Shown here one piece after another: positions 48,596 to 51,808 of a stretch of DNA of 57,055 nucleotides. Under the pieces are notes generated by a model. It was not told the DNA's origin, searched no databases, and saw only the letters and a list, made by a program, of their open reading frames with translations. The DNA is taken from the NCBI GenBank assembly GCA_947445225.1, contig CANFCX010000003.1:1-57055 (forward strand). The letters run 5' to 3'. The stretch is from Rhodospirillales bacterium. Its GTDB lineage: Bacteria; Pseudomonadota; Alphaproteobacteria; CACIAM-22H2. Every line of letters begins with the position of its first letter. Positions within the stretch are counted from its first letter, which is position 1. A program made the translations under genes and the position numbers.

Positions 48596-48624
48596 AAGAT
48601 AGGTTCCTGAATCGAGGCTGTCAA
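48596..48624 (-). promoter_or_regulatory. candidate sigma-70 promoter for tolC
   Basis: Minus strand TTGACA (48624-48619)-N17-TATCTT (48601-48596); -35 lies in the left arm of the palindrome. Confidence 0.55.
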
Positions 48625-48668
48625 AATATCAGTTTGGCCGGCCAAACTGATATTTTGACAGCCTCGAT
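48611..48668. repeat. perfect 58-bp palindrome (29-bp arms, no spacer)
   Basis: ATCGAGGCTGTCAAAATATCAGTTTGGCC|GGCCAAACTGATATTTTGACAGCCTCGAT. Confidence 0.97.
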
Positions 48669-48731: not shown

Positions 48732-49154
48732 ATGAACGACCATCGCCGTTATGCCCGCGCGATCGAGCTGCTCCGAGCAGCGAAATTGCGCCCCACACGC
48801 CAGCGGATGGCGCTCGCCCGCCTGCTTTTTGCCACCGGCCACCGGCATGTCACCGCCGAGACCCTTCATGACGAGGCGCTGGCGGCGCATGTTCGGGTTT
48901 CCCTGGCCACGGTCTACAACGCGCTGCATCGGTTCACGGCCGCGGGGCTGCTGCGCGAGGTGGTCGTCGACGGCCAGCGATCCTGTTTCGATACCAACAC
49001 CACCGATCATCAGCATTTCTTCATCGAGGAAGAGGGGCAGCTTCAAGACATTCCGGCCGCCAGCGTGCAGATCACCGGATTGCCCGCACCGCCGCCGGGA
49101 ACCAGCATCCGGCGCGTCGATGTCATCGTCCGCGTGGCAAAAGTATCGGGCTAG
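48732..49154 (+). CDS. irr: Fur-family iron response regulator Irr
   Basis: RPTRQRMALARLLFATGHRHVTAETLHDEALAAHVRVSLATVYNALHRFTAAGLLREVVVDGQRSCFDTNTTDHQHFFIEE. Confidence 0.9.
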   Translation: MNDHRRYARAIELLRAAKLRPTRQRMALARLLFATGHRHVTAETLHDEALAAHVRVSLATVYNALHRFTAAGLLREVVVDGQRSCFDTNTTDHQHFFIEEEGQLQDIPAASVQITGLPAPPPGTSIRRVDVIVRVAKVSG

Positions 49155-49186
49155 TTGTTGGCCCAATCGAGTGACAGCCAGTAAAT

Positions 49187-49201
49187 TAGAATCGTTCTAA
49201 A
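49187..49201. promoter_or_regulatory. candidate Irr binding site (ICE box)
   Basis: TTAGAA-TCG-TTCTAA, matching the core of the TTTAGAANNNTTCTAAA-type ICE motif, just upstream of a TTGACA -35 and the rubrerythrin gene. Confidence 0.75.
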
Positions 49202-49205
49202 ATAT

Positions 49206-49234
49206 TGACAGCGTTGGGCGGCGCTGCCATATGA
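49206..49234 (+). promoter_or_regulatory. candidate promoter of rubrerythrin gene
   Basis: TTGACA (49206-49211)-N17-CATATG (49229-49234); -10 is weak. Confidence 0.45.
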
Positions 49235-49315
49235 AACGGTGACGGAATTCGCGGCCTCGGCCGCGGATTTCGGAAAGATTGTCGTCCACCAACACGTCCG
49301 CTGAAAAGGTGCATC

Positions 49316-49735
49316 ATGGCCAATTTGAAGGGCTCCAAGACCGAGCAAAATCTGAAAGACGCCTTCTCCGGCGAATCGCAAGCCAATCGACGGTATCTCT
49401 ATTTCGCGCAAAAGGCCGATGTCGAAGGCTACAACGATGTTTCGGCGGTTTTTCGGTCGACGGCCGAGGGCGAAACCGGACACGCCCACGGCCACCTTGA
49501 ATTTCTCGAGGCCGTTGGGGATCCCGCGACGGGGTTGCCCATTGGCGACACCTCGAAGAACCTGAAAGCGGCGATCGCGGGCGAAACCCATGAGTACACC
49601 GACATGTACCCGGGTATGGCCAAGGTCGCCCGCCAGGAAGGCTTCGGCGAGATCGCCGATTGGTTCGAGACTCTGGCGAAAGCTGAACGGTCTCATGCCG
49701 GCCGGTTCCAAAGGGCTCTCGATACTTTGACCTAA
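49316..49735 (+). CDS. rubrerythrin-family protein
   Basis: [60 protein letters not shown]; diiron ExxH motifs; no C-terminal rubredoxin domain. Confidence 0.93.
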
Positions 49736-49746
49736 GAGCCTTCTCG

Positions 49747-49777
49747 GCCCTGCCGCAGCCTCGTGCTGCGGCGGGGC
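49747..49777 (+). other. stable hairpin between rubrerythrin and Fe-S protein genes
   Basis: GCCCTGCCGCAGC-ctcgt-GCTGCGGCGGGGC, 13-bp stem with one U-G wobble; no U-tract. Confidence 0.55.
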
Positions 49778-49787
49778 TACAACCGGA

Positions 49788-51185
49788 ATGCGGCCGATTT
49801 CCGATCGAACGCGGCCCTGGGGATGGAGTACAATCTTGCGCGAAGGTAGCCTCGAAGCGCCAACTCGCCATCCGGTCGCGTGGAACGACCCGGCTTTCAC
49901 CGACCCGGCCGCCATCGACGCCGAATTGAGGCGGATTTTCGACATCTGCCACGGCTGCCGCCGCTGTTTCAATCTGTGCGACAGCTTTCCCCGGCTGTTC
50001 GACTTGGTCGACAACGCACCGACCGGGGAACTCGATTCGGTCGACAGCAAGGATTTCAAGGGCGTCGTTGACGCCTGCACGCTGTGCGACATGTGTTTCA
50101 TGACGAAATGCCCCTATGTTCCGCCGCACGCCTTCAACCTCGATTTTCCGCATTTGATGCTGCGGTATCGCGTCGCCGAGGCGAAGGCCGGCATGAACAA
50201 CGTGGTCGAGGGGTTGCTGTCGGAGACCGACCGCAACGGCAAAATGGCGGGGATGGTCGCGCCGCTGGCCAATTGGGCGGGAAAGACCGGTAACCGCCTC
50301 ACCCGGCCGGCGATGGAAAAGGCCCTTGGTGTGCATCGCGACGCACACCTGCCGAAATTTCACGGAAAAAGCTTTTCGCGGCGGGCGCGCACCGAGGCGC
50401 CGCCACGCGCGGCGAACGCCCCGGCGTTGGCGCGCAAGGCCGCGCTTTATGCGACCTGTTTCGTGAACTACAACAACCCCGATATCGGCATGGCGGCGCT
50501 CGGCGTTCTGGCCAAGAACGGCGTCGACGCCAAAGTCGTTTATCCCCGTTGCTGCGGCATGCCACAGCTCGAACGCGGGGAAATCGAGCGGGTCGCCGAA
50601 GCCGCGCGGGCGGTTGCGCGAGATCTGGCGCCGGTTCTCGATGACGGTTACGACATCGTCGCCCTCATGCCGTCCTGCGCGCTGATGATGAAATTCGAAT
50701 GGCCGTTGATCGTGCCCGACGATCCCGCGGTCAAGCGCCTCGCCAAGGCGACTTTCGACATCAGCGAATACGTCGTGGACATCGCCCGCAAGGAGGGCAT
50801 GGCCCCTGGAATGCAGCCGCTTCCCGGTGGCGTGACGCTTCATCTGGCCTGCCATTCGCGCGCCCAAAACATGGGTCCGAAGGCGGCGGAGATGCTCCGT
50901 CTCATCCCGGGCGCCGATGTCGCCGTGATCGAGCGATGCTCCGGTCACGGCGGTTCCTGGGGGGTCATGAAGGAGAATTTCGAGGTGGCGCTGAAGGTTG
51001 GCCGGCCGGTCGTTAAACAGGCGATCGCCAACGCCAAGGCGCATCTGGCGTCGGAATGTCCGTTGGCCGGCGCTCATATCGTCCAGGGAATGCAGCGCAG
51101 CGATGGCGACAAGGCGCCCGCGGCCGCCGTCCATCCCATCCAATTGCTGGCCCGGGCCTACGGCCTGGACGGCGCCGCCTCCTAA
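49788..51185 (+). CDS. CCG-domain Fe-S oxidoreductase (GlpC/HdrD-like)
   Basis: CHGCRRCFNLC and CTLCDMCFMTKCP ferredoxin-like clusters, two Cys-rich CCG-type regions (CCGMPQLERG; CSGHGGSWG); start may be TTG 49836. Confidence 0.88.
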   Translation: MRPISDRTRPWGWSTILREGSLEAPTRHPVAWNDPAFTDPAAIDAELRRIFDICHGCRRCFNLCDSFPRLFDLVDNAPTGELDSVDSKDFKGVVDACTLCDMCFMTKCPYVPPHAFNLDFPHLMLRYRVAEAKAGMNNVVEGLLSETDRNGKMAGMVAPLANWAGKTGNRLTRPAMEKALGVHRDAHLPKFHGKSFSRRARTEAPPRAANAPALARKAALYATCFVNYNNPDIGMAALGVLAKNGVDAKVVYPRCCGMPQLERGEIERVAEAARAVARDLAPVLDDGYDIVALMPSCALMMKFEWPLIVPDDPAVKRLAKATFDISEYVVDIARKEGMAPGMQPLPGGVTLHLACHSRAQNMGPKAAEMLRLIPGADVAVIERCSGHGGSWGVMKENFEVALKVGRPVVKQAIANAKAHLASECPLAGAHIVQGMQRSDGDKAPAAAVHPIQLLARAYGLDGAAS

Positions 51186-51205
51186 TCGGGGCGAAGGGTT
51201 GCGCC

Positions 51206-51808
51206 ATGAGCCAGAGACGCCAGGTGACCGCGGCCGAAATCCTGCCGCTTGAGGACTACAACCGAAAACGCCCGGCAAAACGGCGGGAGATGGTGGTTCT
51301 CAAGGCGAGGCGGCGCATGGAAGTCGGCCCGTTCGCCATGTTCAATTTCGAGAACTACGACACGATGTGGTACCAAATTCACGAGATGCTGGCGATCGAG
51401 AAGGGCGCCGAGGCGCAGCTCAAAGAGGAGCTGGCCGCCTATAACCCCTTGATTCCGAACGGTCGCGAACTCGTCGCCACGGTCATGTTCGAAATCGAGG
51501 ACCCAGTTCGGCGGGGCCGGGTTCTCGCCCAACTCGGCGGCGTCGAGCATTCGGCCTTTCTAACCGTAGGCGGCGACCGTATCGTGGGACAAAGCGAAGA
51601 CGACTCGGAGCGAACGCGCGCCGATGGCAAGGCCTCGGCGGTGCAATTCGTGCATTTCCCATTTTCGCCGGCTCAGATCGAAGTTTTCCGGAGATCCGGG
51701 GCGCAAATCGTTCTTGGCTTCGATCATCCCAACTATCGCCATATGGCGGTGATGCCCGACGACGTCCGCCGGGAATTGGCCGCGGATTTCGAGGCGCCAC
51801 CTGCTTAA
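51206..51808 (+). CDS. DUF3501 family protein
   Basis: RREMVVLKARRRMEVGPFAMFNFENYDTMWYQIHEMLAIEKG...YNPLIPNGRELVATVMFEIEDP. Confidence 0.9.
   Translation: MSQRRQVTAAEILPLEDYNRKRPAKRREMVVLKARRRMEVGPFAMFNFENYDTMWYQIHEMLAIEKGAEAQLKEELAAYNPLIPNGRELVATVMFEIEDPVRRGRVLAQLGGVEHSAFLTVGGDRIVGQSEDDSERTRADGKASAVQFVHFPFSPAQIEVFRRSGAQIVLGFDHPNYRHMAVMPDDVRRELAADFEAPPA

Follow-up and report, generated by a model that had tools for sequence, protein, structure and literature searches.

Predicted control of the aerobic-type rubrerythrin operon by Irr through an ICE-type operator conserved across Alphaproteobacteria

Introduction

A rubrerythrin (RBR), a CCG-domain Fe-S protein (RFO), and a DUF3501 protein were named the aerobic-type rubrerythrin system and analysed phylogenetically by Cardenas, Quatrini and Holmes in 2016 (PMC5114695). 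The trio is linked and the rubredoxin domain is absent; RFO was suggested as the replacement for the lost rubredoxin, and its supply of electrons to rubrerythrin was proposed from genome context (PMC5114695). In the 2020 report on the Andalucia godoyi genome, the trio is presented as a mitochondrial system whose RFO and DUF3501 proteins are alphaproteobacterial in origin (PMC7050145).

Irr and its ICE operator control mbfA, bfr, and ccpA in Rhizobiales and Rhodobacter (PMC3413700, citing Rudolph 2006 and Rodionov 2006). No link between Irr and the trio was found in the literature that we searched, and an earlier prediction in Rodionov 2006 or Rudolph 2006 is possible.

Here we describe a locus in which irr and the trio genes lie together on the + strand of contig CANFCX010000003.1 of a Rhodospirillales bacterium. 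The whole stretch analysed, 57,055 nucleotides, is referred to as the window. A sequence-only reading of it had put the cluster forward as an under-described system, a description that no longer fits the trio, since it was named in 2016 (PMC5114695) and assigned to mitochondria in 2020 (PMC7050145).

Results

The irr gene (48732-49154, +) encodes a Fur-family haem/iron response regulator of 140 aa, recognized by PF01475 (64.5 bits) and by the NCBIfam Irr models. It is followed by rbr (49316-49735, +), encoding an aerobic-type, rubredoxin-less rubrerythrin of 139 aa (PF02915, 105 bits), by the gene of the CCG-domain Fe-S protein RFO (49788-51185, +; CCG domain, 35 bits), and by that of a DUF3501 protein of 200 aa (51206-51808, +; PF12007, 189 bits). 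RFO translation starts either at the ATG at 49788 or roughly 16 codons further on, at an internal start codon. The end of irr at 49154, the start of rbr at 49316, and the same-strand order of a CCG Fe-S protein and a DUF3501 protein agree with the sequence-only reading. The gap of 161 bp between irr and rbr holds both the operator and the promoter.

On the other side of irr, the divergent tolC/irr gap contains a perfect 58-bp inverted repeat with zero spacer (48611-48668), which carries TTGACAG on both strands and is the only palindrome in the window with arms of at least 13 bp. Its counterpart in a relative of the same genus (G008, L009) is merely imperfect. The repeat may be a corrected quasi-palindrome, a mirror promoter pair, or an assembly hairpin.

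The regulator passed both NCBIfam thresholds, with 204 bits for IrrA (cut-off 150) and 189 bits for Irr (cut-off 170), and scored far under the cut-offs of the PerR models. Its HxH haem-binding motif is HQH, within TTDHQHFF, and an HxH motif is present in all 29 neighbouring Irr proteins. An N-terminal Cys-Pro haem-regulatory motif was found neither in the sequence of this Irr nor in 28 of its 29 relatives. This motif belongs to the B. japonicum type only and is not required of every Irr. The R. leguminosarum-type Irr, for example, functions without it (PMC7762939). The Fur family of the genome comprises three genes, namely one Irr, one Fur, and one Zur-like gene, Irr being single.

The rubrerythrin domain spans residues 12-134 of the rbr product and no domain follows it. 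The protein matched, over its full length, the rubredoxin-less structures 9onm and 4di0 (E about 6e-73) and sulerythrin 1j30 (1e-52). With the linked RFO (COG0247/CCG) and DUF3501 (PF12007) genes, the locus has the composition of the aerobic-type system. Twelve cysteines of RFO are invariant in 64 homologues (numbered from the codon at 49830): C40/43/46/50 and C83/86/89/94 form two ferredoxin-type motifs, and C210, C241, C242, and C283 are the CCG cysteines. The predicted model of RFO resembles LutA, HdrB, and EtfD; judged by these cysteines and this model, RFO is built as an electron-transfer subunit, a build that does not indicate the electron source. An assignment as GlpC was rejected, as the scores of 193.5 and 134.9 bits stay under the respective cut-offs of 278 and 279.9 and mark RFO as related to GlpC only. 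No invariant Cys or His was found in DUF3501 among 64 homologues, which makes a redox centre of its own unlikely. The DUF3501 model (pLDDT 95) had a sole match, PDB 3fjv, itself without a known function; the fold was therefore dropped as a clue, there being no function to transfer. Neither haem catalase (PF00199) nor peroxidase (PF00141) was found in the genome (G000, 97.5% complete), so that a non-haem peroxidase plausibly matters in this organism.

The predicted Irr site is the ICE-type operator TTAGAATCGTTCTAA, a perfect 6-3-6 inverted repeat without strand. The match of TTAGAA-TCG-TTCTAA lies at 49186-49200, with 0 mismatches, and is the single perfect copy in the 2.6-Mb genome; shuffles of the window yielded 0.11 operator matches with up to two mismatches allowed. 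A TTTAGAANNNTTCTAAA-type inverted repeat, as expected of an ICE box near a promoter, is thus present as ATTAGAATCGTTCTAAA, whose 6-3-6 arms are perfect and whose outer pair is mismatched. The sequence-only reading was right that the repeat is perfect and precedes TTGACA; its position (49187-49201) was one base off, and the gap is 4 bp rather than 5. In the rbr promoter, the -35 box TTGACA (49205-49210, +) stands at a conserved spacing from the operator and is followed, after a 17-bp spacer, by the probable -10 box CATATG (49228-49233, +). Transcription of rbr is predicted to start at about 49240, which places the operator centre at about -47.

A wider Irr regulon in this genome was sought with a degenerate scan allowing one mismatch and was rejected, the scan giving 20 sites per strand against 53 for the reversed control. 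As the control outnumbers the scan, the rbr site alone stands out in the genome. Another zero-mismatch match (C59), 22 bp upstream of an amidohydrolase-like ORF and beside a LysR-like gene, was not accepted as a target.

By itself, the window offers one lone palindrome, and chance is excluded because the palindrome is conserved among 102 irr-linked loci. In the order of the window genome, an rbr match was present in 21 of 23 genomes, and in 19 loci the upstream side is intact. All 19 have irr in front of rbr and a 6-3-6 palindrome in the gap, with the consensus YTRGAANNNTTCYAR, a few bp upstream of TTGAC. Across the class, an rbr relative was detected at E <= 1e-30 in 215 of 387 genomes, and 93 loci, picked for family spread before the upstream sequence was inspected, though from the best-scoring matches, were joined to the 19 order loci to give a sample of 112. 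A survey of the ICE site, a check that the sequence-only reading had proposed, bore out its conservation. In 102 of the 112 loci, irr is the immediate upstream neighbour of rbr, the RFO gene comes next after rbr in 110 of 112, and YTRGAANNNTTCYAR occurs with at most one mismatch in 92 of the 102 irr-linked loci (54 exact, 38 with one mismatch). At the same threshold, dinucleotide shuffles of these upstream sequences gave a mean of 0.7 loci (maximum 3), and the reversed motif was found in 2 loci of the irr-linked set. When the promoters are aligned, the palindrome widens to about AGTTTAGAANNNTTCTAAACT, with the half-sites preserved and the centre variable, and an A/T-rich NATAT -10 element is kept 17 bp after TTGACA.

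In one genome (G061; L205/L216), three consecutive ICE-type palindromes, TTGGAATAGTTCTAA, TTAGAATTGTTCTAA, and TTAGAATTATTCTAA, lie upstream of rbr.

Because adjacency alone could mimic a conserved Irr site, we compared genomes in which irr is unlinked or missing. Of the 8 genomes in which irr is located elsewhere, 7 keep the site with no more than one mismatch, namely G068, G318, G296, G098, and those with the Methylocapsa/Methylocystaceae loci L064, L079, and L065, three of the seven being Beijerinckiaceae-type; in G188, whose divergent Irr-like gene is also elsewhere, the site has two mismatches. Meanwhile, in 12 of the 13 rbr-bearing genomes lacking an Irr-like gene, the best site has 3-4 mismatches. 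One of the irr-less genomes (G124, L220) retains the promoter TTGACA-17-CATATA and has lost the site. The sole exception among the 13 is G181 (L219), where a perfect TTAGAATTATTCTAA stands upstream of rbr and the best Irr-model score is 35.9 bits. Absence of Irr was judged by the NCBIfam model NF045677; a protein search at 1e-25 proved too stringent and was discarded, divergent Irr proteins adjacent to rbr in G235, G271, and G292 and the unlinked one in G188 having escaped it. The site depends on the presence of Irr with a Fisher p = 5e-4, a value to be read in the light of same-family genomes not being independent and of an Irr-less set spanning nine families. As the site tracks Irr whether linked or not, it appears to be Irr rather than its neighbourhood that keeps the site, and this is our strongest argument.

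Among the 92 loci, 81 have a TTGAC that starts 2-7 bp past the site, the commonest gap being 4 bp (55/92). A looser promoter search placed the site directly against the -35 box in 84 promoters out of 104. The site lies between the -35 and -10 boxes or over the -10 box in L127, L128, L192, and L211, and downstream of the -10 box in L214.

Outside the class, TTAGAC-N3-GTCTAA was seen upstream of aerobic-type rbr genes with no neighbouring irr at seven gammaproteobacterial loci (L055, L069, L088, L101, L108, L110, and L111), and the variant TTAGAA-N3-TTCTAA upstream of rbr at three others (L077, L106, and L112). Irr-like Fur proteins scoring 114-130 bits, under the Irr cut-off, were present in 9 of the 13 gammaproteobacterial genomes searched.

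Discussion

The sequence-only reading proposed that Irr governs the rbr cluster, and comparative genomics lends this strong support, the site being conserved in orthologous promoters. Whatever the sign of regulation, a link between Irr, the site, and the operon is very probable. The best explanation of the whole, to which we assign a probability of roughly 60%, is an aerobic-type rubrerythrin operon repressed by Irr, with binding, sign, a shared transcript, and the functions of RFO and DUF3501 all predicted. While haem or iron is scarce, Irr would occupy the ICE palindrome next to the rbr -35 box and keep rbr, RFO, and DUF3501 repressed. Once haem is made, or haem-loaded Irr is oxidised, Irr would leave the site and the operon would be transcribed. 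Rubrerythrin would then reduce peroxide at its diiron site, RFO, in place of the absent rubredoxin domain, would feed it electrons, and DUF3501 would serve as a non-redox partner. The role of RFO as electron donor is an inference that has already been proposed in print.

The sign of regulation is where the main competitor lies. Irr bound upstream of the -35 box might instead turn the operon on when haem is scarce, so that a non-haem diiron peroxidase would be produced at times when haem catalases and peroxidases cannot, sparing haem; we regard this as possible, though distinctly less probable than repression. The operator centre at about -47 and the modal 4-bp gap would suit contact with RNA polymerase. 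The usual position just upstream of the -35 box, at a rather fixed spacing, is a geometry that activators also use, and it weighs against repression. The Rudolph study of 2006 is said to have found ICEs upstream of the promoter in positive control in B. japonicum, and ICEs overlapping the -10 box or the start in negative control. Irr activates or represses according to the ICE position (PMC7762939), and in mbfA of R. sphaeroides, whose ICE is bound by Irr, the 5' end falls inside the box (PMC3413700), a case that would favour repression. A rubrerythrin of Pelagibacter rises 1.57-fold under iron limitation (PMC2864753), which by analogy would point to activation and is the only expression hint. 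As both geometries occur, the operator position alone was rejected as a criterion for the sign. All of the observed site positions are compatible with repression by occlusion; the fixed spacing seen in most promoters accords with activation. Sites that overlap or follow the core promoter occur in at least five lineages, which argues against activation and speaks for repression under low haem or iron. The full-consensus -35 box of rbr, of a kind often missing from activated promoters, the iron-rich nature of the trio enzymes themselves, and the irr-less lineage (G124) that retains its promoter without the site count against activation as well. Repression is the predicted sign, with somewhat better than even odds.

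Two further readings give Irr no part at the site. Fur, a PerR-like protein, or an unrelated dimer might bind the palindrome, the irr neighbourhood being incidental, and the gammaproteobacterial TTAGAC-N3-GTCTAA promoters with no adjacent irr, together with the site retained in G181 where no Irr was detected, would fit such a regulator. We consider it improbable, given that within the Fur family the window genome offers only Fur and the Zur-like protein besides Irr, that the site follows Irr in the Fisher comparison although several Irr-less genomes have other Fur-family proteins, and that most of the gammaproteobacterial genomes searched contain an Irr-like protein after all. The palindrome could, in principle, be a chance or structural repeat without a regulatory role, as it is a single short repeat in the window and a long palindrome is also found upstream of irr; conservation at 92 of 102 loci, with half-sites kept while the centre varies, leaves this idea with next to no probability. 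The repressed, Irr-controlled operon remains our preferred reading.

If it is right, Irr would have to be seen less as a rhizobial iron regulator that touches peroxide defence than as one linked, throughout Alphaproteobacteria, to a single peroxide-defence operon; haem status and the promoter would also give an entry into a trio whose joint function is inferred only. Tentatively, Irr might have begun as the regulator of the rbr trio, handed down together with the operon as a local haem/peroxide switch, and the global iron regulon of Rhizobiales might be a later elaboration of this role. The gammaproteobacterial TTAGAC-N3-GTCTAA sites and Irr-like proteins might then represent an older, PerR-like form.

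PerR-type regulators control peroxide-defence genes in other bacteria. There too, a Fur-family dimer acts on a related palindrome that precedes the peroxide-defence gene, whereas the regulator of the window scores as Irr and far under the PerR cut-offs. The described Irr/ICE targets share the regulator family and the operator type with our locus, and one of them, the MbfA protein blr7895, has been called rubrerythrin-like (PMC3413700). However, MbfA is a membrane-bound ferritin, and the target in the window is a soluble aerobic-type rubrerythrin accompanied by RFO and DUF3501; the promoters of aerobic-type rbr genes differ from those targets further in that the site mostly abuts the -35 box. 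The mitochondrial trio of Andalucia and other protists consists of the same three proteins, with unlinked genes and no Irr seen in the available text of the report (PMC7050145). The operon of the window is the free-living counterpart of the trio proposed for the ancestral mitochondrion. With the system of Cardenas et al. it shares the three proteins, their linkage, the rubredoxin-less rubrerythrin, and the proposed electron supply by RFO; the upstream irr and the ICE operator are new here, the text of PMC5114695 mentioning neither Irr nor the Fur family. The operon itself is thus known, and what the comparison adds, even if it may have been predicted earlier, is a well-conserved, apparently new target and gene neighbourhood of a known regulator.
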